DNA of 64,000 nucleotides, taken from positions 248,001 through 312,000 of the forward strand of contig CP075895.1 in NCBI GenBank assembly GCA_018604165.1, given 5' to 3'. Shown here piece after piece: positions 38,015 through 49,840 of the stretch. Under the pieces are notes generated by a model. That model did not search any database. It worked only from the letters and a program-made list of their open reading frames with translations, and was not told the DNA's origin. This DNA is from Chitinophagaceae bacterium LGM1. GTDB taxonomy: Bacteria; Bacteroidota; Bacteroidia; Chitinophagales; Chitinophagaceae. Position numbers and translations under genes: made by a program. The number at the start of each line of letters is the position of its first letter. Within the stretch, counting starts at the first letter, position 1.

Positions 38015-38061
38015 GTCTATGAAAGCATAAGACCATGCGTTCTAACAACAATCATACGCCA

Positions 38062-38080
38062 AACTGATATAAATCATGTT
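38062..38080. promoter_or_regulatory. Fnr/Crp-type operator, site A
   Basis: AACTGA-TATAAA-TCATGTT, core TGA-N6-TCA. Its centre (38070.5) is 29.5 bases before the -7 element of the MBL-rhodanese gene, about -43 from the predicted start, which is the class II activator position. Sites B and C have the same core and right half. Confidence 0.7.
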
Positions 38081-38099
38081 TTGCGTTTGTGCGCGTAAA

Positions 38100-38107
38100 T
38101 ACTTTTG
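38100..38107 (+). promoter_or_regulatory. Bacteroidota -7 promoter element for the MBL-rhodanese gene
   Basis: TACTTTTG, an exact TAnnTTTG match, with TTTG at 38080-38083 as a possible -33 element (16 bases between). Confidence 0.6.
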
Positions 38108-38128
38108 TATTGTCTAAAAACTATGTTT

Positions 38129-39547
38129 ATGAAAATAGAGCAGATATATACAGGATGCCTTGCACAGGGTGCATACTATATCACATCGGGCAACGAGGCA
38201 GTGATAATAGACCCGTTGCGCGAAATACAACCTTATATAGAGCGTGCGCAAAAAGATGGCGTTGCCATTAAGTACGTATTTGAAACGCATTTTCATGCAG
38301 ACTTCGTGTCGGGGCATATAGACCTTGCTAAAGCAACCGGCGCAACCATTGTATATGGACCGACAGCACAACCAGCGTTTGATGCATACGTAGCAAAAGA
38401 TGGAGAAATGTTTGTAGTAGGCGATGTGGCATTTCAGGTATTGCACACGCCCGGACACACAATGGAGAGCTGCTGCTATCTGCTTAAAGATGAAAAAGGT
38501 AAAGACATTGCATTGTTTTCGGGAGATACTTTGTTTTTGGGAGATGTTGGCAGGCCCGACCTGGCACAGAAAGCTGCTAACATGATACAAGAAGAACTGG
38601 CAGTGCTGCTCTACACATCATTGCGTACCAAGATAATGCCATTGGCAGATGATGTAATCGTGTATCCCGCACACGGAGCAGGCAGCGCATGTGGTAAAAA
38701 TATGAGCAATGCTACACAAGACACACTGGGACACCAAAAAGCTACCAACTATGCATTGCGTGCAGATATGACGAAAGAAGAATTTGTAAAAGAAGTAACT
38801 ACAGGGTTGGTAGCACCACCACAATATTTTCCTTTTAATGTGATGATGAATAAAACGGGCTATGCCAACATCAGCGATGTATTGCAACAAGGTACACGGC
38901 CCTTGTCTGTAGTAGCATTTGAAGCAGCAGTAGCAGAAACCAACGCATTGGTATTAGACACCCGTAGCGAAAAGGAATTTGTAAATGGCTTTATACCGGG
39001 CTCTATTAATATTGGTTTGGATGGTAGCTTTGCTCCCTGGGCAGGTGCTTTGATTACAGATATAAAACAGCCTATCGTATTTATAGCTGATGCAGGCAGA
39101 GAGCAAGAAGTAGTAACAAGGCTTGCAAGAGTAGGTTATGATAATTGCCTCGGTTATTTGCAAGGTGGTATAGCCGCATGGCAAGCTGCGGGTAAAACAC
39201 TTAATACGGTACAGTCTATAACTGCTGAAGAGCTGGCAGACGGGTTGGAAATAAAACCAACCATTATGCTGCTGGATGTACGCAAAAAAAGCGAGTATGA
39301 TGCAGAGCATATTATAGGAGCTGAAAACCTGCCATTAGATAATATAAATGCAGAAATGAGTAGGATAGACAGAGATACTACTTATTATGTGCATTGCGCT
39401 GCGGGTTACCGTTCTGTTATATTTATATCTATCATGATGTCGAGAGGTTTTACGAACCTGATAAATGTAAAAAGTGGCATTAACGCCCTGAAAGCCAGTG
39501 AAAGATTTAATATCAGCCAGTATAAAGAACCTGTAACGATGTTGTAA
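38129..39547 (+). CDS. MBL-fold metallohydrolase with two rhodanese domains (persulfide dioxygenase-like)
   Basis: 472 residues from the ATG at 38129 (MKIEQIYTGCLAQGAYYI); an ATG at 38123 is also in frame, but family proteins begin at MKIEQ. The metallo-beta-lactamase domain (1-250) has THFHADFVSGH (about 52), GHTMESC and FSGDTLFLGDVGRPDL, the ETHE1-like set. Rhodanese domain 1 (about 272-354) lacks the active Cys (IADAGRE). Domain 2 (about 378-460) keeps it in VHCAAGYRS (Cys near 421). The family oxidises or transfers persulfide sulfur. It sits in the micro-aerobic island behind an Fnr-type operator. Confidence 0.9.
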   Translation: MKIEQIYTGCLAQGAYYITSGNEAVIIDPLREIQPYIERAQKDGVAIKYVFETHFHADFVSGHIDLAKATGATIVYGPTAQPAFDAYVAKDGEMFVVGDVAFQVLHTPGHTMESCCYLLKDEKGKDIALFSGDTLFLGDVGRPDLAQKAANMIQEELAVLLYTSLRTKIMPLADDVIVYPAHGAGSACGKNMSNATQDTLGHQKATNYALRADMTKEEFVKEVTTGLVAPPQYFPFNVMMNKTGYANISDVLQQGTRPLSVVAFEAAVAETNALVLDTRSEKEFVNGFIPGSINIGLDGSFAPWAGALITDIKQPIVFIADAGREQEVVTRLARVGYDNCLGYLQGGIAAWQAAGKTLNTVQSITAEELADGLEIKPTIMLLDVRKKSEYDAEHIIGAENLPLDNINAEMSRIDRDTTYYVHCAAGYRSVIFISIMMSRGFTNLINVKSGINALKASERFNISQYKEPVTML

Positions 39548-39568
39548 ACATGGCTTATTTGCAGTAGT

Positions 39569-39593
39569 CTTGTAAAGTGTTTAAATTTACAAG
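39569..39593. promoter_or_regulatory. Inverted repeat upstream of the Fnr gene
   Basis: CTTGTAAA at 39569-39576 and TTTACAAG at 39586-39593, separated by 9 bases, ending 18 bases before the TTG start. It is a candidate autoregulatory operator, different from the TGA-N6-TCA sites. Confidence 0.35.
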
Positions 39594-39611
39594 TGAATAA
39601 ATACTACTGTT

Positions 39612-40331
39612 TTGGCAGACAAGCACAAAGGCGGATTCAGTGAGGCATGCGAAACCTGTGGTTCTCGACACAAGTCTATATTTTGCCATTTGGCAATGGA
39701 TGAGCTTGCTTTGTTTAATGAAAGCAAGTCGTGTATGTCTTTCAAAAAAGGACAAATTATATTCAACGAGGGTGGGCATCCACTTGGTATATACTGTGTA
39801 AACGAGGGGAAGGTAAAAATATCACACAGCGGGCAAGATGGTAAAGACCAGATAGTGCACCTTGCCAAAGAAGGGGATGTACTTGGCTACAGGGCTTTGC
39901 TAAGCTCCGAAAAATACAATGCGACAGCTATAGCGCTGGATGATACGAAAGTGTGCTATGTGCCGAGAGATACATTTTTTCAGGTACTGAAAACCAGCCA
40001 CGGACTATCGTTAGAAATCATCAAACTATTAGCAACAGAATTGCGTAGGGCAGTAAATACTATTACCGACCTTGCCCAAAAACCAGTACGCGAACGCACC
40101 GCCGAAGCATTGTTGTTTTTGAAAGAAACCTATGGTTTTGAAGAAGACGGTGCAACCATCAATGTGGTATTGAGCAGGGAAGATATTGCCAATCTGGTAG
40201 GTACTGCTACGGAAACGGCTATCCGCTTGTTGTCAGAATTCAAGAACGATAAAATCGTTGAGTTCATCGGCAAAAAAATTAAGATACTGGATATGAACAA
40301 GCTGATAAAAACAGCTAACATACTATACTAA
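39612..40331 (+). CDS. Crp/Fnr family transcriptional regulator
   Basis: 239 residues. The frame has no ATG before residue 28. A TTG at 39612 is the only start that keeps the N-terminal CETCGSRHKSIFCHL cysteine cluster; a stop codon lies about 20 bases further upstream. Residues about 30-140 form the cyclic-nucleotide-type sensor barrel (GQIIFNEGGHPLGIYCVNEG), followed by the dimer helix and a winged helix (about 160-230, SREDIANLVGTATETAIRLL). The three N-terminal Cys could ligate an Fe-S cluster as in Fnr, but the spacing is not the E. coli one. It is the likely regulator of sites A, B and C and of the cco genes. Confidence 0.9.
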   Translation: MADKHKGGFSEACETCGSRHKSIFCHLAMDELALFNESKSCMSFKKGQIIFNEGGHPLGIYCVNEGKVKISHSGQDGKDQIVHLAKEGDVLGYRALLSSEKYNATAIALDDTKVCYVPRDTFFQVLKTSHGLSLEIIKLLATELRRAVNTITDLAQKPVRERTAEALLFLKETYGFEEDGATINVVLSREDIANLVGTATETAIRLLSEFKNDKIVEFIGKKIKILDMNKLIKTANILY

Positions 40332-40344
40332 ACCCTATGCTGAA

Positions 40345-40364
40345 AACATGACAAAAATCATGTT
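40345..40364. promoter_or_regulatory. Fnr/Crp-type operator, site B
   Basis: AACATGA-N6-TCATGTT, a perfect 7-bp-arm palindrome with core TGA-N6-TCA. Its centre (40354.5) is 51.5 bases before the -7 element at 40406, the same spacing as site C. Confidence 0.8.
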
Positions 40365-40405
40365 TCAGTATAGCCTGTATCATATTATCCGCCTGCATGT
40401 CAATT

Positions 40406-40413
40406 TACCTTCG
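40406..40413 (+). promoter_or_regulatory. Probable -7 promoter element for the 183-aa protein and ccoI
   Basis: TACCTTCG, a variant of TAnnTTTG, 22 bases upstream of the ATG at 40428. Confidence 0.5.
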
Positions 40414-40427
40414 TAGAAAGGTGAATT

Positions 40428-40979
40428 ATGGCTAAGATTCTTTTCTCGCAATACAGGCACAACGACCTCCACAATCTTGTCAATAAATTAGACAAGGATT
40501 ATTATAGTGTACTAAGCACTTTGTGCCAAACGGCAGAATTGCTGATAGATAAGCTGGAGGGTATGGAGCCACAGCAATCTACCTTGTTATATCTCAGCCT
40601 CAGTAAAAAACTGTTGTCGCAAGTAAACGAGCTAGTGATGCAACGTATAGGTATGTTATTGCCCTACGCGCAAGAGCTGCATTCAAAAGAAACAAGCGGG
40701 CATGATTGCGGTGCCTGCGAGGGCGGATGCCATATCAAGCACAGCACCCAGTTAATAGGCTTAAAGGAATCTCATCATAAGATAAAAGAAATCCTGTTCA
40801 GGCTGCACACAGTGGCATTGCCCTTGTATGCCGATGTTGATTATCCAGCACAGTACAAAACATTGCGCAACGAAATGATGCTGATTGATACGGTATTGAC
40901 AGAATTGTTTTATCTGGAAGAAGCGAGCCTGATACCTAAGATAATGGAAGCGCAAAAGAACATTCATGCCTACAATTGA
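40428..40979 (+). CDS. Uncharacterised Cys/His-rich helical protein of the cco island
   Basis: 183 residues, almost entirely alpha-helical and predicted soluble. A loop near the middle holds a metal-site-like cluster: His92, Cys94, Cys97, Cys101, His102 and His105 (GHDCGACEGGCHIKH). The C-terminal helix pair (about 115-178, with LEEASLIPKI) recalls the hemerythrin/RIC repair fold by eye, though several expected His ligands are absent. The gene is the first of the transcript with the copper ATPase ccoI, which overlaps it by 14 bases, and has its own Fnr-type site. Metal or redox sensing linked to oxidase assembly is inferred. No family is firmly recognised. Confidence 0.6.
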   Translation: MAKILFSQYRHNDLHNLVNKLDKDYYSVLSTLCQTAELLIDKLEGMEPQQSTLLYLSLSKKLLSQVNELVMQRIGMLLPYAQELHSKETSGHDCGACEGGCHIKHSTQLIGLKESHHKIKEILFRLHTVALPLYADVDYPAQYKTLRNEMMLIDTVLTELFYLEEASLIPKIMEAQKNIHAYN

Positions 40980-43416
40980 TACGGAAAGAAATACCATTAT
41001 CATCAGCAAGCCTGTTGTGCACAAATCTACCGCGTGTTACCATTGCGGAACGGATTGTATAACAGACAGCATAGCCATTGAAGAAAAAGTATTTTGCTGT
41101 GAGGGGTGTAAGCTGGTGTATGAAATACTGAATGATAATGGATTGTGCGATTACTACAAATTGCAATCTCATCCGGGGCTAACGCAAATAAAACCTGCAA
41201 GGGCAGATAAATTTGCCTATCTGGATAATGAAGAAATAGCATCGAAGCTATACAAGTTTACTGACGGCAACCATACCATGGTAACACTCTATATACCCGG
41301 TGTGCATTGCGCATCGTGTATGTGGCTGCTTGAACACATGAATAAACTGGCTGCCGGTATAACAGAAAGCAGGCTCAACTTTACGAGCAAAGAAGTAACG
41401 ATACGTTTTAAGAAAGATACCATAACCCTGCGAAGGATAGTAGAACTGCTGACAACCATAGGCTATGAACCATACATAAGCCTTGACGATGCTACACAGA
41501 GTAAAACCAAGAACCATAACAAGCAACTGATATACAAGCTGGGTGTTGCGGGCTTTTGTTTTGGCAACATCATGTTGATGAGTTTTCCTGAATACCTGTC
41601 GCTTGACAAGGGTATAGAGTATGAGTATGCTTTTCTGTTCAGGATACTGAATGTGGTGCTTGCGTTGCCAGTGTTTTTTTATAGCGCGTCAGCGTTTTTT
41701 AGTTCAGCTTGGGCAGGGTTAAAGCAAAGGATATTGAATATTGACGCGCCGATTGTACTGGCACTCATCATAACATTCTCACGTAGTATATATGAGATAG
41801 CCACCAATACAGGTAGTGGTTATCTGGACAGCATGAGTGGTATCGTATTCTTCATGCTGGTGGGGCGTGTAGTGCAGGAGCGAGCCTATAAATCCATCTC
41901 GTTTCACAGAGATTATAAATCGTACTTCCCGATTGCAGTGAATGTGGTAACGAAAGATGGTATCATATCAAAAAACCTGCAAGACCTACAAGAGAAAGAT
42001 GTTGTAGAGCTGCATAACGATGAGATAATACCTGCCGATGCCATATTGGTAAAAGGTAGTGCACGCATAGACTACAGCTTTGTAACCGGAGAAAGCGAAC
42101 CTGTGTTGGTAGAAGCAGGCAAACAAGTATATGCAGGTGGTAAGCAAGTAGGTGAGAAGATAACTATACAAGTAGTAAAGCCTGTTGCGGCTAGCTACCT
42201 GACATCGCTTTGGAATCATCACTCTTTTGCAAAGAATAAAGCAGAGAAGAACAACCGCGAGAGCATCATACATGTGATGAGTAAATATTTTACCATTGTA
42301 TTGTTTGTACTGGCAGCTACTACTGCCGTGTATTGGTGGGTGAATGACCCTGCTAAAATATTGCCGAGTGTATCGGCTATGCTGATAGTGGCTTGCCCTT
42401 GTGCTTTGTTGCTGGCAGCTACGTATACAAACGGCAATTTGTTGAGGTTATTGAGTAATAATGGCTTGTATCTGCGAGACGCAACAGTGATTGAACAGAT
42501 AGGCGATGCGACACATATTGTGTTTGACAAAACAGGTACGCTGACACAAGGCAGCAAACAGTTTCATACAACGGGACACCAACTGACAGAAACGGAGAAA
42601 GCATGGGTATATAATACCGCATCGCATAGTAAGCACCCATACAGCAAAGCATTGGTAAAGTACTTAGGGGCATTCCCAACTCTAGAGATAGACAAGTGGG
42701 AAGAACACACAGGTAAAGGCTTGTATGCGGCAATTGGCAATAATACCGTGCAGATTGGCTCTGCTGCGTTTACAGGTGTTACAGCCGAAAGCGATAGTAA
42801 TAAACCCGCATTGTATATACGTGTGAACGATAAGGTAACTGCGTTTTATGTAACTACGGAATTCAGACAGGAAGTAGCGCAACTGATACCTCAATTGCAT
42901 AAGCGTTACGGGTTGTCGCTGCTGTCGGGCGATAATGACAGGCAACGTGAGCAGTTGCAAACACTTTTCGGGCAAAACAGTACGTTGTTGTTTGAACAAA
43001 AGCCGTTACACAAACTGAATTATATTAAACAATTGCAAGACCAAGGTGGTAAAGTACTGATGGTAGGTGATGGGCTGAATGATGCAGGTGCTTTACAACA
43101 AAGCAATGTAGGCATTACGCTGGCAGATGATATCAACAATTTCACCCCCTCTTGCGATGCGATACTGGATGCAGGTAAGTTTGGAAAATTCCCTGCATTG
43201 TTGCAACTCGCCTATTCGGGCAAATACATTATCTACTTCAGTTTTATCATATCCATTCTTTATAATATCGTCGGGCTCAGTATATCTATGCAAGGTAAAA
43301 TGAACCCGATGATAGCTGCCATACTAATGCCTGTTAGTACATTAAGCATTGTGCTGATAACAACGGGCTTAGGCAGCCTTGTTGCAAAAAAAGCAGGGCT
43401 CTCGCTGAAAGCTTAA
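40966..43416 (+). CDS. ccoI: Copper-translocating P-type ATPase for cbb3 oxidase assembly (CcoI-like)
   Basis: 816 residues. The N-terminus has a Cys cluster (CYHCGTDC ... FCCEGCKLVYEIL, about 24-55) typical of CcoI/FixI, then a heavy-metal-binding domain with GVHCASCMWLLE (about 109-120). Transmembrane helices include the metal-site ACPCALLLAATY. Phosphorylation Asp lies in FDKTGTLTQG, and GDGLNDAGAL is the hinge motif. It exports Cu(I) to the periplasmic side for the binuclear centre of the oxidase. It overlaps the preceding gene by 14 bases and is followed by the ccoS promoter. Confidence 0.92.
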   Translation: MPTIDTERNTIIISKPVVHKSTACYHCGTDCITDSIAIEEKVFCCEGCKLVYEILNDNGLCDYYKLQSHPGLTQIKPARADKFAYLDNEEIASKLYKFTDGNHTMVTLYIPGVHCASCMWLLEHMNKLAAGITESRLNFTSKEVTIRFKKDTITLRRIVELLTTIGYEPYISLDDATQSKTKNHNKQLIYKLGVAGFCFGNIMLMSFPEYLSLDKGIEYEYAFLFRILNVVLALPVFFYSASAFFSSAWAGLKQRILNIDAPIVLALIITFSRSIYEIATNTGSGYLDSMSGIVFFMLVGRVVQERAYKSISFHRDYKSYFPIAVNVVTKDGIISKNLQDLQEKDVVELHNDEIIPADAILVKGSARIDYSFVTGESEPVLVEAGKQVYAGGKQVGEKITIQVVKPVAASYLTSLWNHHSFAKNKAEKNNRESIIHVMSKYFTIVLFVLAATTAVYWWVNDPAKILPSVSAMLIVACPCALLLAATYTNGNLLRLLSNNGLYLRDATVIEQIGDATHIVFDKTGTLTQGSKQFHTTGHQLTETEKAWVYNTASHSKHPYSKALVKYLGAFPTLEIDKWEEHTGKGLYAAIGNNTVQIGSAAFTGVTAESDSNKPALYIRVNDKVTAFYVTTEFRQEVAQLIPQLHKRYGLSLLSGDNDRQREQLQTLFGQNSTLLFEQKPLHKLNYIKQLQDQGGKVLMVGDGLNDAGALQQSNVGITLADDINNFTPSCDAILDAGKFGKFPALLQLAYSGKYIIYFSFIISILYNIVGLSISMQGKMNPMIAAILMPVSTLSIVLITTGLGSLVAKKAGLSLKA

Positions 43417-43431
43417 ACGTGGGTTTGCAAA

Positions 43432-43451
43432 AACATGACAACAATCATGTT
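43432..43451. promoter_or_regulatory. Fnr/Crp-type operator, site C (cco operon)
   Basis: AACATGA-N6-TCATGTT, identical to site B except inside the N6. Its centre (43441.5) is 51.5 bases before the -7 element at 43493, exactly as at site B. Confidence 0.8.
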
Positions 43452-43492
43452 TCGGTTTGAGCATTGTCATAGCATTGCGGAAGGCACGATGG

Positions 43493-43500
43493 TAGCTTTG
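43493..43500 (+). promoter_or_regulatory. Bacteroidota -7 promoter element for the ccoS-ccoNO operon
   Basis: TAGCTTTG, an exact TAnnTTTG match, 31 bases upstream of the ccoS ATG. Confidence 0.65.
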
Positions 43501-43523: not shown

Positions 43524-43676
43524 ATGAGTGCACTTTATCTCTTAATACTGGCAAGCATAGCAGTTGCCGCTTTTTTCCTGATAGCATTTATCTGGAGCGT
43601 ACGCTCCAATCAGTTTGAGGACAAACAAGGTGCGGCGATGCGTATGCTGCAAGACGATGAAATAACAATAAACTAA
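43524..43676 (+). CDS. ccoS: cbb3-type cytochrome oxidase assembly protein CcoS
   Basis: 50 residues: MSALYLLILASIAVAAFFLI then a charged segment with SNQFEDKQGAAMRML. This is the CcoS pattern: one helix, then the QFED block. It assists insertion of haem and copper into CcoN. It is the first gene after operator site C and 34 bases ahead of ccoNO. Confidence 0.92.
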   Translation: MSALYLLILASIAVAAFFLIAFIWSVRSNQFEDKQGAAMRMLQDDEITIN

Positions 43677-43710: not shown

Positions 43711-45852
43711 ATGGACAATACACTGCAAACGGACAAATTCTTTTACGATAATAAAATCGTAAAATGGTTTGCTTACGCTACAATCCTTTGGGGGCTGGTG
43801 GGCATGCTGGTGGGGGTACTTGCAGCATTTCAACTGGTTTATCCCGTTCTTAATCTAAACACTGCCGAAACGACTTTTGGTAGGGTAAGGCCTGTACACA
43901 CCAACGCGGTGATATTCGCGTTTGTGGGCAACGGTATATTCATGGGTGTTTATTATTCGCTGCAAAGGCTTTGTAAAGCACGCATGTTCAGCGATTTTTT
44001 CAGCAAGCTCCATTTCTGGGGCTGGCAGCTCATCATTGTATTAGCGGCGGTTTCGTTATTAGCGGGCTATACAACGGGTAAAGAATACGCTGAGCTGGAA
44101 TGGCCTATTGATATACTGATAACATTGGTATGGATAGTGTTTGGCGTAAACATGTTTGGTACTATCATCAAACGCCGCGAACGCCACCTGTATGTTGCTA
44201 TCTGGTTTTATATAGCCACGTTTGTAACGGTAGCCATGTTGCACATTGTCAACTCTTGGGAGATACCATTCAGCTTCATGAAATCGTATAGCTGGTATGC
44301 GGGCGTGCAGGATGCGCTGATACAATGGTGGTACGGACATAACGCTGTGGCGTTCTTCCTGACTACACCTTACTTGGGTATTATGTACTACTTCCTGCCC
44401 AAAATCGCTAATCGCCCTGTGTATTCTTACAGGTTGTCTATCATACACTTTTGGGCACTCATATTTATCTATATATGGGCAGGACCACACCACCTCTTAT
44501 ACACTGCTTTGCCAGACTGGGCACAATCGTTAGGTGTGGTGTTTTCTGTAATGCTGATTGCACCATCGTGGGGTGGTATGCTGAATGGCTTGCTGACACT
44601 ACGTGGTGCATGGGATAAAGTACGCGAAGATGTAGTATTGAAATTTTTAGTAGTGGCAGTAACGGCTTATGGTATGGCTACGTTTGAAGGCCCGATGCTG
44701 AGTGTAAAAACAGTGAACGCTATTAGTCACTTTACAGACTGGACCATTGCACACGTACACGTTGGCGCACTGGGCTGGAACGGCTTTTTGACATTCGGTG
44801 TACTCTACTGGCTGATACCAAGAATATTCAGAACAAACCTGTACTCTCAGAAAATGGCCAACTGGCACTTCTGGATTGGTACATTGGGTATCGTCATCTA
44901 TGCAGTGCCGATGTACTGGGCAGGCTTTATGCAGGCACTGGCTTGGAAAGAATTTACCGCAGAAGGACAACTGAAATATCAGTTCATGGAAACGGTAACA
45001 CAGATGCGTCCTTTCTACATGATGCGCGGTATAGGTGGTGTGTTGTACTTGATAGGTGCAGTGATGATGACATACAACCTTGTAAAAACCATCCGCAGCG
45101 GTAAAGCAGTAGATGAAGAGGCAGCAGAAGCAGCACCACTATCGAAAGTATATGAAGACCACGGTAGCCACCACTGGCACCGTTGGATAGAACGCCGCCC
45201 TGTGCAGATGATGGTGTTCAGCCTTGTACTGGTTGCGATTGGTGGCTTGATAGAAATTATCCCAACATTCATGATAAAATCGAATGTACCAACCATTAGC
45301 AGTGTAAAACCATACACGCCGCTTGAGTTGCAAGGACGTGATATATATGTACGTGAGGGTTGTTATACATGCCATAGCCAGATGATACGTCCGTTCCGCA
45401 GTGAAGTAGCCCGATATGGTGAATACTCGAAAGCAGGTGAGTTTGTGTACGACCATCCTTTCCAATGGGGTAGTAAACGTACAGGGCCGGACTTGGCACG
45501 CGTTGGTGGTAAATACCCGGATAGCTGGCACTTCAACCACATTTATGAGCCGAATAGCATGTCTCCCGGTTCTATCATGCCTGCTTATCCGTGGTTGTTT
45601 GAAAATGATATTGATACAGGTATTACGCCTGCTAAAATTGAAGCTATGCAAACGCTGGGTGTACCATATGAAGCAGGGTATGCACAAAAAGCGAATGCCG
45701 ACCTGATGAAACAAGCTGACCAAATACGTGGCAATCTTGCAAAAGATAATATACAGGCTAAGAGCAATAAAGAAATCATAGCATTGATAGCGTATTTGCA
45801 GCGTGTAGGTACAGATATAAAACTGGAACAGAAAACAGCATCATCTAACTAA
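43711..45852 (+). CDS. ccoNO: cbb3-type cytochrome c oxidase, fused subunits CcoN-CcoO
   Basis: 713 residues. Residues 1 to about 475 are the 12-helix catalytic subunit CcoN, with haem and CuB histidines in VHTNAVIFAF, WWYGHNAVAFF, GPHHLLYTALPDW and THIAHVHVGALGWNGF-like segments. Residues about 500-713 are CcoO, anchored by one helix and carrying a c-type haem site at GCYTCHSQMIRP (about 548) and an axial Met in SPGSIMPAYPWL. The fusion is usual in Bacteroidota. It is the high-affinity terminal oxidase reducing oxygen to water in micro-oxic conditions. Confidence 0.96.
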   Translation: MDNTLQTDKFFYDNKIVKWFAYATILWGLVGMLVGVLAAFQLVYPVLNLNTAETTFGRVRPVHTNAVIFAFVGNGIFMGVYYSLQRLCKARMFSDFFSKLHFWGWQLIIVLAAVSLLAGYTTGKEYAELEWPIDILITLVWIVFGVNMFGTIIKRRERHLYVAIWFYIATFVTVAMLHIVNSWEIPFSFMKSYSWYAGVQDALIQWWYGHNAVAFFLTTPYLGIMYYFLPKIANRPVYSYRLSIIHFWALIFIYIWAGPHHLLYTALPDWAQSLGVVFSVMLIAPSWGGMLNGLLTLRGAWDKVREDVVLKFLVVAVTAYGMATFEGPMLSVKTVNAISHFTDWTIAHVHVGALGWNGFLTFGVLYWLIPRIFRTNLYSQKMANWHFWIGTLGIVIYAVPMYWAGFMQALAWKEFTAEGQLKYQFMETVTQMRPFYMMRGIGGVLYLIGAVMMTYNLVKTIRSGKAVDEEAAEAAPLSKVYEDHGSHHWHRWIERRPVQMMVFSLVLVAIGGLIEIIPTFMIKSNVPTISSVKPYTPLELQGRDIYVREGCYTCHSQMIRPFRSEVARYGEYSKAGEFVYDHPFQWGSKRTGPDLARVGGKYPDSWHFNHIYEPNSMSPGSIMPAYPWLFENDIDTGITPAKIEAMQTLGVPYEAGYAQKANADLMKQADQIRGNLAKDNIQAKSNKEIIALIAYLQRVGTDIKLEQKTASSN

Positions 45853-46075: not shown

Positions 46076-47239
46076 ATGCGCAAAGGTTTTAATAAATACA
46101 TCTCTCTTGCAATGTTGTCTGTTGCTACCCCTAAGCTGGCTATAGCAGCAGACGGTGCGGCGCTGCCCGCAGCCGAAGGCAATTCATTCAACGCCGTGCT
46201 GATAGGGCTTGTATGTATTTCTTTGGTATTGCTTTTTGCTATACTGGTGTTGGGCAATACACTCAGGCAATTAGCATTAGTGTATCGCGATAAGATGCGC
46301 GATGAAAAGAAAAGTGGTGTCGTAAAAACGCTGCTGCTATTGGTTGCAGCAACTGTTGGCTCGTATGCAGCAAACGCACAAGATGCAGCAGCACAGGCGC
46401 AAGCACCTGCACCTGCGTTTATTAATGGCATACCATCAGCGCATTTCTATACGCTGATAGGTATTATAGCATTGCAATTGCTGGTAATATTATCGTTGGC
46501 TTTTCTTGTCCGTATAATGGTGCGCCTAATTAGTAATGACCCCGCTAAGGCTGCCGTGGCTAAAGAGATAGTGAAAGTAAACTTCTGGGACAGGTTTAAT
46601 AAAGTAGTGCCTTTAGAAAAAGAAGCAGATATATTATTAGACCACGATTATGATGGTATTAAAGAGCTGGATAACAGCTTACCCCCTTGGTGGAAATATG
46701 GCTTTTATGTAACGATAGTAGTAGGCTTTATCTACATGTGGTATTATCATGCGGGTGGTAATGGGCCAAGCTCTTATGATGAGTTTGTAGCAGAAGTGCA
46801 GGCAGGCGAAGAAGCGAAAGCAGCCTACCTTGCCAAGAGTGCTAATAATGTAGATGAGAACACCGTGAAGATGCTGGATGCGACAGGAATAGCAGAAGGC
46901 GGAAAACTGTTTGACCAAATGTGTGCTGCCTGCCATGCAAAAGACGGTGGTGGTGGTGTAGGCCCTAACCTGACGGATGATTACTGGCTGCATGGCGGTA
47001 GCGTAAAAGACATTTTCAAAACCATTAAATACGGTTATCCGGATAAGGGTATGAAGAGTTGGAAAGACGACTACTCGCCCAACCAGATAGCACAGATAAC
47101 CAGTTATGTAAAATCGTTGCAAGGCACTAAGCCCGCAGCACCTAAAGACAAACAAGGCGAATTGTATATAGAAGCAAGTGTGCCAACCGATAGTGCAGCA
47201 GCACCCGCTGCTGATACTGCAAGGGTGGCAAGTAAGTAA
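46076..47239 (+). CDS. ccoP: cbb3-type cytochrome c oxidase subunit CcoP
   Basis: 387 residues. It is longer than proteobacterial CcoP, with extra N-terminal transmembrane helices (about 8-26, 40-62, 86-102 and 122-146). The CcoP core begins at VNFWDRFNKVVPLEKE, followed by the helix WWKYGFYVTIVVGFIYMWYY. One c-type haem motif, CAACH, lies near residue 283, with the axial Met later (GMKSWKDD). Only one haem site is visible, as in other Bacteroidota, versus two in proteobacteria. It delivers electrons to CcoNO. Confidence 0.93.
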   Translation: MRKGFNKYISLAMLSVATPKLAIAADGAALPAAEGNSFNAVLIGLVCISLVLLFAILVLGNTLRQLALVYRDKMRDEKKSGVVKTLLLLVAATVGSYAANAQDAAAQAQAPAPAFINGIPSAHFYTLIGIIALQLLVILSLAFLVRIMVRLISNDPAKAAVAKEIVKVNFWDRFNKVVPLEKEADILLDHDYDGIKELDNSLPPWWKYGFYVTIVVGFIYMWYYHAGGNGPSSYDEFVAEVQAGEEAKAAYLAKSANNVDENTVKMLDATGIAEGGKLFDQMCAACHAKDGGGGVGPNLTDDYWLHGGSVKDIFKTIKYGYPDKGMKSWKDDYSPNQIAQITSYVKSLQGTKPAAPKDKQGELYIEASVPTDSAAAPAADTARVASK

Positions 47240-47267
47240 TGAGGCAAACTAACTAAAACAAAACAAG

Positions 47268-48668
47268 ATGAGCGGAACGGATACGGCATCGTTCAGGGAT
47301 AAGGTAACGACGGTAGATAAAGAAGGCAAACGGATTTGGATTTTCCCGCAAAAGCCAAAAGGAAAATTATACAATACCCGTACGTTGCTGAGTGTGTTTT
47401 ACCTGTTGATATTGTTTGCTCTGCCGTTTATAAAATATCAGGGACACCCGTTATTTCTCATCAACGTACTGGAAAGAAAATTTATCCTGTTTGGTCAGAT
47501 ATTCTGGCCACAGGATTTTTTCATATTCGGTTTGGGGATGATCATTTTTATCATCTTTATAGCTTTATTCACCGTTGTTTTCGGGCGTGTATTTTGCGGA
47601 TGGGTATGCCCGCAAACCATATTTATGGAGCTTGTTTTCCGTAAGGTAGAATATTGGATAGAGGGTGATGCTGCGGAACAGCGCATATTGAAAAACAGAA
47701 AATGGGACGGAGATAAGATTTTTAAAAAAATGATGAAGTGGATAGTTTTCTGGGCTATCAGCTTTTTAATTGCCAATACATTTCTTGCCTATATAATAGG
47801 TATTGACGAGTTGCGAACTATCATATCAGAGCCAGTAGGTAAACATTTTGGCGGGTTTGTAGCCATCGTCATATTTACCACACTTTTCTTCTTTGTGTAC
47901 TCTTGGATGCGCGAACAGATTTGTACGGTTGTTTGTCCGTATGGGCGTATGCAAGGGGTGTTGTTGGATAAAAACTCGATAGTTGTAACGTACGACCATG
48001 TGCGTGGCGAGCCAAGAGGGAAATTCAAGAAAAATGAAGAACGTGCCATAGGCGATTGTATAGACTGTAATCAATGTGTGCGTGTATGCCCTACCGGTAT
48101 TGACATAAGGCATGGTACGCAATTGGAGTGTACCAACTGTACGGCATGTATAGATGCTTGTGATAAAATGATGGAAGCTGTGAATCTGCCAAAGGGCTTG
48201 ATACGCTACGCTTCAGAAAATAATGTAAGTGCCAAACAACCATACAGGTTTACAGGCAGGATGAAAGCATATACTGCCGTAATGATACTGTTGCTGGTTG
48301 TAGAGGTTTTCTTATTAGTTACACGTACCGATGTGGGCATTACTATACTTCGCACACCCGGACAGCTATATCAGGAACAGCCAAATAATCAGTTGAGTAA
48401 TCTATACAACTATAAGTTTCTGAATAAAACATACTATAACAAAGTACTGGAGCTGAAACCTGAAGATTTTGAAGGCACTATCAAACTGGTGGGTGAAGAA
48501 AACCTTAAAGTGCCGAAAGAAAGTGCGGCTGCTGGTTCGATGTTCATTTATATCGATAAAAAATACGTCAACAAGCGCAAGACGAAACTAAAAATAGGTG
48601 TGTATGAAAATGGTGAAAAAATAAGCACAATCAACACATCATTTTTAGGGCCATTCGGAGCTAACTAA
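47268..48668 (+). CDS. ccoG: Cytochrome c oxidase accessory protein CcoG
   Basis: 466 residues. Four transmembrane helices with VFCGWVCPQTIFMELVFRKV between them, and two 4Fe-4S clusters in a ferredoxin-like region: CIDCNQCVRVCP (about 262) and CTNCTACIDACDKM (about 286). The C-terminal periplasmic domain is immunoglobulin-like. CcoG reduces Cu(II) for oxidase assembly. It is in the cco operon, 28 bases after ccoP. Confidence 0.94.
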   Translation: MSGTDTASFRDKVTTVDKEGKRIWIFPQKPKGKLYNTRTLLSVFYLLILFALPFIKYQGHPLFLINVLERKFILFGQIFWPQDFFIFGLGMIIFIIFIALFTVVFGRVFCGWVCPQTIFMELVFRKVEYWIEGDAAEQRILKNRKWDGDKIFKKMMKWIVFWAISFLIANTFLAYIIGIDELRTIISEPVGKHFGGFVAIVIFTTLFFFVYSWMREQICTVVCPYGRMQGVLLDKNSIVVTYDHVRGEPRGKFKKNEERAIGDCIDCNQCVRVCPTGIDIRHGTQLECTNCTACIDACDKMMEAVNLPKGLIRYASENNVSAKQPYRFTGRMKAYTAVMILLLVVEVFLLVTRTDVGITILRTPGQLYQEQPNNQLSNLYNYKFLNKTYYNKVLELKPEDFEGTIKLVGEENLKVPKESAAAGSMFIYIDKKYVNKRKTKLKIGVYENGEKISTINTSFLGPFGAN

Positions 48669-48678
48669 ATATATTCTT

Positions 48679-49128
48679 ATGAGCGTAATGAAAATAAACT
48701 GGGGTGCTAAAATTGCATTATTATATGGCGGATTTGTGGTGCTGATAGTAATGCTGGTAGCAGGTAGTATGCGACAAGATTTTGACCTTGTAACTCCTGA
48801 CTACTATGGGCAGGAAATAAAATATCAGCAAGTGATAGATGCCGGCAAGAATCAGGCTACTTTGTCTGCCCCTGTAGTTATACATGCAAATGCAACAGAT
48901 GTAATGATTGAATTTCCCAGCGAATTTGCAGACAAAGTGGTGAAAGGAGATGTGCATTTTTATTCGCCCGTTAATGCTTCTTGGGATAAAACATTCAACA
49001 TTAATATTGCCAATAATAGTATGACGGTACAACGTAGCGAGTTGCGAAATACGAATTACACCATTAAACTTAATTGGGAAGCAGACGGTAAAAAATATTA
49101 TCAGGAAACAACCCTAAATCTGCGATAG
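48679..49128 (+). CDS. ccoH: FixH/CcoH family assembly protein
   Basis: 149 residues. One N-terminal membrane helix (IALLYGGFVVLIVMLVAGS) and a periplasmic beta domain that starts DLVTPDYYGQEIKYQQVID, the FixH signature. It aids insertion of metals into the cbb3 oxidase together with ccoI. It starts 10 bases after ccoG and ends 1 base before the next start. Confidence 0.9.
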   Translation: MSVMKINWGAKIALLYGGFVVLIVMLVAGSMRQDFDLVTPDYYGQEIKYQQVIDAGKNQATLSAPVVIHANATDVMIEFPSEFADKVVKGDVHFYSPVNASWDKTFNINIANNSMTVQRSELRNTNYTIKLNWEADGKKYYQETTLNLR

Positions 49129-49129
49129 T

Positions 49130-49840
49130 ATGAGCAGCTTTACACTCTCAATGGCTTTGCTGATGGGGCTTACGGGTAGCCTGCATTGTGCAGGTATGTG
49201 TGGTCCTATTGTGTGGGTGATGCCATTTGGTATGATGAGTGGATTTAAAAAATGGTTGGGCATTGCCTTCTATCATATAGCGCGTATAAGTGTATATGCA
49301 GCAATGGCAATCGTGCTGCATTCCTTCAGACATCTGTTTCAGCCGCAGTGGCAACAGTATATTTCTATTGTATTAGGTGTTGTGCTACTGATTATAGGTT
49401 TTGTATCATTTATTCCAAACCATTCTGTCAAAATATCATTGCCTTGGGCAGGCTTTGTAAAAAAGCAATTGGGTAGGTTTATTGGTAACCCTTCGTTGTT
49501 CAGCCTTACGATGGCAGGACTGCTAAACGGATTATTGCCATGCGGGCTTGAATACATGGCGTTGTCATCAACTGTTACTGCGCCCACAGCTACACAAGCT
49601 GCCGTGTTGATGTATGCTTTCGGTTTAGGTACCGTACCCATGATGGTAGGCATTACGATACTGAAAAACAGAACAGGCATTTTAAGGTTTAATCATGTTA
49701 GAAAACTAGTGCCTGTTATGATGTTTGTTTTCGGTGCATTATTTGTTGTGCGTGGTATGAACCTGGGCATCCCTTATCTGAGCCCTAAAGTAACAGTTGA
49801 ACAAAACGAAGTGAAAGCAAGTTGCTGTCATAAAAATTAA
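49130..49840 (+). CDS. Sulfite exporter TauE/SafE family membrane protein (cco-linked)
   Basis: 236 residues, six membrane helices. LTGSLHCAGMCGPI near the N-terminus, with paired Cys, and GLLNGLLPCGLEYMAL mid-protein are features of the UreH/DsbD-like branch found at the end of cco operons, where it is thought to act in copper handling. The C-terminus ends KASCCHKN, a potential soft-metal site. It is translationally coupled to ccoH (1 base gap). A metal-transport or assembly role is inferred from context. Confidence 0.82.
   Translation: MSSFTLSMALLMGLTGSLHCAGMCGPIVWVMPFGMMSGFKKWLGIAFYHIARISVYAAMAIVLHSFRHLFQPQWQQYISIVLGVVLLIIGFVSFIPNHSVKISLPWAGFVKKQLGRFIGNPSLFSLTMAGLLNGLLPCGLEYMALSSTVTAPTATQAAVLMYAFGLGTVPMMVGITILKNRTGILRFNHVRKLVPVMMFVFGALFVVRGMNLGIPYLSPKVTVEQNEVKASCCHKN

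Follow-up and report, generated by a model that had tools for sequence, protein, structure and literature searches.

Which DNA elements switch on the genes of this cbb3 oxidase cluster, and which protein reads them? The window, by which we mean the whole 64 kb stretch of DNA analyzed here, belongs to a genome consisting of a single contig of 3,322,193 bases and carries, all on the forward strand, genes for an MBL-fold and rhodanese protein (38123..39547; Pfam Lactamase_B and Rhodanese); a 239-aa CRP/FNR-type regulator with a TTG start (39612..40331; Pfam cNMP_binding and HTH_Crp_2); a 183-aa protein without a Pfam or NCBIfam match (40428..40979); a CcoI-type copper P-type ATPase (40966..43416; Pfam E1-E2_ATPase and ATPase-cat_bd); CcoS (43524..43676; Pfam FixS, and NCBIfam ccoS above cut-off); a CcoN-CcoO fusion of the cbb3 oxidase (43711..45852; Pfam COX1 and FixO, NCBIfam ccoN); and the remaining cco operon, comprising CcoP, CcoG, CcoH, and a DsbD-like membrane protein as judged by Pfam (46076..49840). 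A first-pass annotation of this DNA had described an FNR-type operator set with one palindrome per promoter and the regulator gene in its middle, and the set does surround that gene.

The three TGA-N6-TCA palindromes stand exactly at the centers first given for them, 38070.5 (A), 40354.5 (B), and 43441.5 (C); B and C both match AACATGA-N6-TCATGTT exactly and A matches it with 2 mismatches; and the distances from site center to the -7 element are 29.5 bases for A and 51.5 for both B and C, as claimed. These palindromes are just the better member of a pair, and each promoter has a second site at the other distance. Specifically, i) promoter A, whose target is the MBL-rhodanese gene, has a degenerate distal operator A1 (GTTCTAACAACAATCATACG, 38039..38058; core TAACAACAATCA at 38043-38054, 5 of 6 core bases) 51.5 bases, and the proximal operator A2 (AAACTGATATAAATCATGTT, 38061..38080, the palindrome originally called A) 29.5 bases, from an exact TAnnTTTG, the -7 element TACTTTTG (38100..38107); ii) promoter B has the exact motif as its distal operator B1 (AACATGACAAAAATCATGTT, 40345..40364, the original B) and a degenerate proximal operator B2 (AGTATAGCCTGTATCATATT, 40367..40386; core TAGCCTGTATCA at 40371-40382, 4 of 6 core bases), again 51.5 and 29.5 bases from the -7 element TACCTTCG (40406..40413), which is one base off TAnnTTTG; and iii) promoter C has the exact motif as distal operator C1 (AACATGACAACAATCATGTT, 43432..43451, the original C) and a proximal operator C2 (GGTTTGAGCATTGTCATAGC, 43454..43473; core TGAGCATTGTCA at 43458-43469, 6 of 6 core bases) at the same two distances from another exact TAnnTTTG, TAGCTTTG (43493..43500). 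All of these elements lie on the forward strand. The near relative IBVUCB1 (L075) retains both operators of each of the three promoters, while the bases separating the second site from the -7 element have drifted.

Counting the T of the -7 element as -12, 29.5 bases correspond to -41.5 and 51.5 bases to about -63.5. The earlier class assignment therefore holds for the positions themselves, 29.5 being class II and 51.5 near class I, but to call A a class II promoter and B and C class I promoters is too simple, all three having sites at both positions. The 22 bases that had been read as a difference in phase between promoters are actually the spacing inside one site pair. That the PLP-decarboxylase gene shares promoter A in the divergent direction was also considered and rejected, the minus-strand candidate TAACTTTG lying at a non-canonical 56.5 bases from A2.

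The core motif by itself is uninformative, with 16 occurrences of TGA-N6-TCA in the window against 15.66 expected, and having found it at chance level there we dropped the bare core as evidence. The full motif AACATGA-N6-TCATGTT is enriched, its exact form occurring at three places in the whole genome: B, C, and one before a homogentisate-dioxygenase-like gene. We also scored a composite of 18 fixed bases, consisting of a site, 10 bases, a second site, 23 bases, and TAnnTTTG. Within the 64 kb, C scores 18/18, A 17, and B 15, and nothing else there reaches 15; in a whole-genome search C (0 mismatches) and A (1 mismatch) are the two best places. The B composite, with 3 mismatches, is matched genome-wide by four further places of equal score, C1:3291781 among them, and 5 places turn up with the reversed pattern, so that B cannot be distinguished from chance by genome search alone; its support comes from the exact B1 site, its position, and its conservation.

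Does the pair recur where the same genes recur? For this we took the best 80 of at least 591 ccoNO neighborhoods and examined the DNA preceding ccoS or ccoN, with the gene-nearest -7 element as anchor and the core free to lie anywhere from 15.5 to 99.5 bases upstream. With the window included, 42 of 81 promoters were usable, 39 being dropped for want of TAnnTTTG or TAnnTTCG in the last 200 bases. Among these 42, from the best 80 loci, two distances stand out: 51.5 bases, where 34 promoters have 5-6 of 6 core bases (33 have all 6), and 29.5 bases, where 35 have 5-6 (25 have all 6); no other distance is used by more than 4. The idea of a single site per promoter was dropped after this free scan showed two peaks. 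Composite scores for 80 of the 81 cco regions (L074 being too short) tell the same for this best-80 set: 22 regions score 18, 16 score 17, 7 score 16, and 6 score 15, while the remaining 29 fall at 8-14. A composite of at least 16 lies within 350 bases of ccoS or ccoNO in 53 of the 80 best loci, and anywhere in the locus in 63. The comparison of sites with TAnnTTTG in related Bacteroidota, proposed with the original annotation as a check, thus finds both distances recurring in cco promoters, and the layout extends far past this cluster.

The spacing is sharply defined. When the first site must be perfect and the score at least 16, the (10,23) architecture gives 140 matches in the best 80 loci, against 4 for (9,23), 9 for (11,23), 1 for (8,23), 0 for (12,23), 2 for (15,23), and 0 each for (5,23) and (20,23). 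Shifting the second gap gives 17 for (10,22), 15 for (10,24), 14 for (10,20), and 7 for (10,26), rows of the (10,x) type that can still hold true site pairs. When no -7 element is required, the same best 80 loci contain 92 perfect pairs with a gap of 10, 9 with a gap of 11, and 0-3 with each of the eleven remaining gaps examined in the range 6 to 20. A -7 element (at least 5/6) stands at the canonical distance from 78 of the 92, on one side or on both, and 6 of these 78 have it on both. Relaxing the requirement to 11-12 of 12 core bases yields 146 pairs, of which 116 have a -7 element on one side, 9 on both, and 21 on neither. Two-sided pairs include L080 near 6983, L091 near 19118, L099 near 7352, and six others, in each of which one pair apparently serves two divergent promoters; a pair can do so because it is its own reverse complement. 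In Runella (L120 and L125) the distal site upstream of ccoS is one base further out, at 52.5, a 23-bp variant of the pair. As a fact of sequence, the paired layout is close to certain.

Nor is the layout confined to cco promoters. The 49 genomes behind the cbb3 loci contain 292 composites with no more than 1 mismatch, in 47 of the 49, and none of the reversed pattern, but this set is enriched for cbb3 function because it was reached through cbb3 loci. At the same stringency, 60 genomes of the window's family contain 282 composites in 50 genomes (reversed control 1). Among 296 genomes of the phylum, 22 contain the exact composite, at 39 places in all (reversed control 0), and by rank it occurs in 8 of 11 genomes of the same family (its own included), 4 of 5 of the same order, 8 of 57 of the same class, and 2 of 223 beyond; the composite is therefore common near the lineage of the window and, at that stringency, rare or absent in much of the phylum sample. 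When the gaps were left free and no mismatch was allowed, 37 whole genomes gave 136 matches, 76 of the canonical length of 65 and 15 of 66, with no more than 5 of any other length (lengths were tallied, the gaps not being read row by row), and its reversed control totals 16. That the sites are chance palindromes in AT-rich promoters, a notion that draws on the chance level of the bare core in the window, is refuted by reversed controls of 0, 0, and 1 against 292, 39, and 282 and by the one sharp spacing, and we give it practically no credence.

It is a different matter whether both members of a pair work. One operator per promoter might suffice, a class II site at A and a class I site at both B and C, which would leave the partners as functionless relics, and with only 5/6 and 4/6 core bases A1 and B2 are degenerate enough to suggest this. 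But at C neither site is degenerate, the cco promoters as a set are enriched for both positions, pairs peak at a single spacing, and the degenerate A1 and B2 are themselves kept in L075; relic partners are thus highly unlikely.

To see what else the promoters share, we aligned the 51 cco promoters scoring at least 15 (from the best 80 of at least 591 loci), in which the cores and the -7 element were part of the selection but the flanks and the -33 region were not. The distal core in these 51 is nearly invariant (TGA in 51/51, TCA in 50-51/51 per base), with a tendency to AAMM before it and KnTTT after it, while the proximal core has TGA in 41-44/51 per base and TCA in 51/51, followed by T in 40. 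Bacteroidota sigma promoters have a -7 TAnnTTTG and a -33 TTG, but the 51 cco promoters give no signal for a -33 element. Activator-dependent promoters likewise do without one, and the geometry here is that of a class II site, centered 29.5 bases from the first -7 base, with another operator further upstream near a class I position, at 51.5, in A, B, C, and the cco promoters.

We propose that each of the three promoters in the window is a composite low-oxygen promoter, in which two TGA-N6-TCA operators spaced by 22 bp, the distal 51.5 and the proximal 29.5 bases upstream of TAnnTTTG, would be bound by two adjacent activator dimers on nearly the same face of the DNA; the proximal dimer would occupy the class II position and the distal dimer a position near class I, and both together would recruit polymerase without its -33 contact. 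The activator in the window would most likely be the 239-aa Cys-type CRP/FNR protein, presumably active as long as it carries an intact, oxygen-labile Fe-S cluster, and its targets would be the genes that surround its own; in many related genomes the same layout would be read by a fusion of receiver and CRP parts driven by a FixL-like heme-PAS kinase. Working from sequence, we consider this model of paired operators with a Cys-type activator here and a receiver-CRP fusion in many relatives to be probable; the positions, spacing, and conservation of the sites are observed directly, and binding, activation, and transcript starts are inferred.

The differing looseness of the two sites, a nearly invariant distal core and a proximal core with a looser left half, could also mean opposite roles, the distal site activating and the proximal site repressing or tuning, as described for the dual anaerobox of rhizobial fnrN in the sections consulted of PMC7888657. 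The fnrN boxes, however, lie at -34 and -2 (PMC7888657, in part), whereas here the -7 element comes well after both sites and the proximal site has the class II placement; we regard opposite roles as quite unlikely.

The likely reader of the sites in the window is the 39612 product. Its cNMP-binding fold and Crp-type helix-turn-helix (PF00027 and PF13545) are both above cut-off. Six cysteines are present, among them C13, C16, C25, and C115, and in an alignment to FNR C13, C16, and C115 coincide with FNR cysteines but C25 does not, giving C-x2-C-x8-C, unlike the spacing in FNR; the third cysteine is missing in several relatives. With the NCBIfam Fnr model the protein scores 87.1 bits, below the cut-off of 228, and we therefore call it a Cys-type CRP/FNR regulator rather than FNR. 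Nor do the sites match the FNR half-site TTGAT: the TGA-N6-TCA core is kept, with flanks of ACATGA or AACTGA. An AlphaFold2 model (mean pLDDT 78.5, pTM 0.53) has residues 1-17 below 50, so weak at the N-terminus that it says little about cluster geometry. Cys-type regulators in L113, L047, L052, L053, L195, and L198-L201 have one N-terminal cysteine missing or moved relative to the window protein, and the metal ligands may thus vary within the Cys-type group.

Two kinds of regulator gene keep company with cbb3 genes. In 34 of the 80 loci (best 80 of at least 591) a CRP/FNR gene lies inside the locus, in 11 cases of Cys type and in 23 a relative of the receiver-CRP fusion (342-384 aa), never both. 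Nine of the 11 Cys-type proteins have three N-terminal cysteines and 2 have two; L123, at 33% identity, is doubtful. All 12 receiver-CRP-type proteins whose N-terminus was inspected begin like receivers, two of them confirmed by Pfam, and the recognition-helix motif E[ST]xIR is found in every aligned protein of both the Cys type and the receiver type. A gene for a PAS-type kinase adjoins the receiver-CRP gene in 10 of the 12 loci, L083 and L088 being without one. The fusions beside FixL-like PAS kinases in a cbb3 neighborhood are those of L072, L077, L096, L097, L099, L102, L103, L104, L118, and L125. Similarity of the kinases to the heme-PAS protein FixL reaches 3.7e-36 for L118 and about 1e-12 for L125, and the histidine of the FixL heme-ligand region, the residue that binds the heme in FixL, is invariant in 10/10. 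The receiver-CRP fusion is likely FixJ and FixK in one protein. It often replaces the Cys-type gene near cbb3 genes and its recognition helix is similar, and for these reasons the operators look constant and the sensor exchangeable.

Composites and CRP/FNR genes also tend to occur together across whole genomes. Among genomes of the window's family, composites are found in 49 of 53 that have a CRP/FNR relative at 1e-20 and in 1 of 7 without (p 2.7e-5); for genomes at least 90% complete the figures are 46/50 and 0/4 (p 2.2e-4). This association may partly reflect the presence of cbb3 genes. The exceptions are G011, G025, G052, and G056, which have a CRP/FNR relative and no composite; G012 (72% complete), with 2 composites and only a weak CRP/FNR relative; and, in the cbb3-locus genome set, G085, with 6 composites and no CRP/FNR relative at 1e-20. 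In 19 genomes picked since searches pointed to one reader type, so that the counts are no measure of exclusivity, all 19 have at least one composite, and 12 have a full-length receiver-CRP fusion that is their single CRP/FNR match; the fusion is absent in 7, including the genome of the window (G000). Genomes with several CRP/FNR genes are common.

Could a CRP/FNR protein other than the 39612 product read the sites here, for example the relative at C1:1659066 of G000? The genome does encode two additional, distant CRP/FNR relatives, one at 27% identity, and a different type of reader is seemingly used in other genomes. Against this, the 39612 gene lies among the sites, its Cys-type orthologs lie in cbb3 loci of relatives, and a search of G000 gave no receiver-CRP fusion of full length; another reader is, in our judgment, unlikely. 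Gene context and recognition-helix similarity are observed, oxygen sensing and the choice of reader in each genome being inferred, and on the evidence of neighborhood, recognition helix, and co-occurrence the 39612 product likely reads the sites in the window, while in other genomes the probable reader of such sites is another CRP/FNR protein.

How does this arrangement compare with known systems? Class II sites of E. coli FNR and CRP are centered at -41.5, and in E. coli FNR/CRP promoters with two sites the spacings vary. The promoters described here resemble class I, II, and III promoters of FNR and CRP in their TGA-N6-TCA core and in a proximal site at the class II place, 29.5 bases before the -10/-7 element begins; they differ in having the second site at a fixed 22 bp, a TAnnTTTG core promoter, and no -33 element seen, and in one layout being used over hundreds of promoters. 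Rhizobia provide the other parallel. In R. leguminosarum a hybrid-FixL route acting through FixK and a Cys-type FnrN both act on the fixNOQP anaeroboxes (PMC7888657, in part), so that two sensors on one operator type are already known. In the rhizobial FixL-FixJ-FixK/FnrN system cbb3 genes respond to low oxygen through a heme-kinase route and a Cys-type FNR on one type of operator (PMC7888657, in part), as they would in the group described here. The rhizobial anaerobox TTGAT-N4-ATCAA is single at fixNOQP, and FixK is induced by a receiver protein distinct from it (PMC7888657, in part); the sites described here are paired, and one fused protein combines the receiver and CRP parts. Within the Bacteroidota, cbb3 oxidase is strongly raised under oxygen limitation in Flavobacterium psychrophilum; the terms Crp, Fnr, and palindrom are absent from the main text of that study, and the parts examined name no regulator or operator (PMC9723704).

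Among the matches listed in the open-access literature, we found no spacing-locked pair, Bacteroidota reader, or receiver-CRP reading; class I and class II activation by CRP/FNR proteins are known, and the fixed 22-bp pair was not found in this literature. To our knowledge, little is known of how Bacteroidota promoters, with their divergent core promoter, are activated, and the recurring layout suggests a shared rule for switching genes on at low oxygen. A broader reading, to which we would give even chances, is that many Bacteroidota share a rigid low-oxygen grammar in which two adjacent dimers 22 bp apart work as a unit in place of the -33 element and, the pair being symmetric, can drive two divergent promoters, the grammar of the DNA being kept while the sensor is exchanged between an Fe-S-type CRP/FNR protein and a FixL-like kinase with a receiver-CRP fusion. 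Such an apparent exchange of sensors on unchanged operators opens to test the general question of how a regulatory network can change its input while its outputs keep their wiring.

The composite can also be searched for with almost no background, so that low-oxygen regulons would become callable directly from genomes of this group and proteins of unknown function would be tied to the low-oxygen response. We surveyed 83 downstream proteins from 99 loci and 112 composites, the first frame past each promoter being picked by script without individual inspection, and ccoNO genes, duplicates, and a small number of frames that were short or doubtful being left out. The commonest Pfam matches among the 83 are E1-E2 ATPase of the CcoI type (8), universal stress protein (5), D-2-hydroxyacid dehydrogenase (4), and Hsp20 (4), followed by baeRF family 3 (3), YceI (3), PPDK (2), and CBS (2), and this content fits a low-oxygen response.

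Two further places in the genome of the window deserve mention. The exact motif copy at C1:1920302-1920321 (L003) precedes the homogentisate-dioxygenase-like gene, which would encode an oxygen-using enzyme, and recurs with one mismatch in G063 (L291); we rejected it as a fourth member of the set, by eye finding no partner at the canonical spacing and the nearest -7-like element, TAATTTTA, 45.5 bases away. A possible fourth composite, with 3 mismatches, lies at C1:3291781-3291845 (L004, L157) between mutL-like and glycosyl hydrolase family 3 (GH3) genes; it is kept in L290, but this conservation says little because the stretch is identical at 274 of 299 positions. Finally, the 183-aa protein encoded between promoter B and ccoI is predicted to form a four-helix bundle (pLDDT 86.2), and the model has weak fold similarity to the di-iron repair proteins YtfE and ScdA (E 5e-3); relatives occur in 5 of the 80 cbb3 loci (best 80 of at least 591), and a His-Asp-Cys motif, two further cysteines, and one histidine are invariant in 6/6 relatives.
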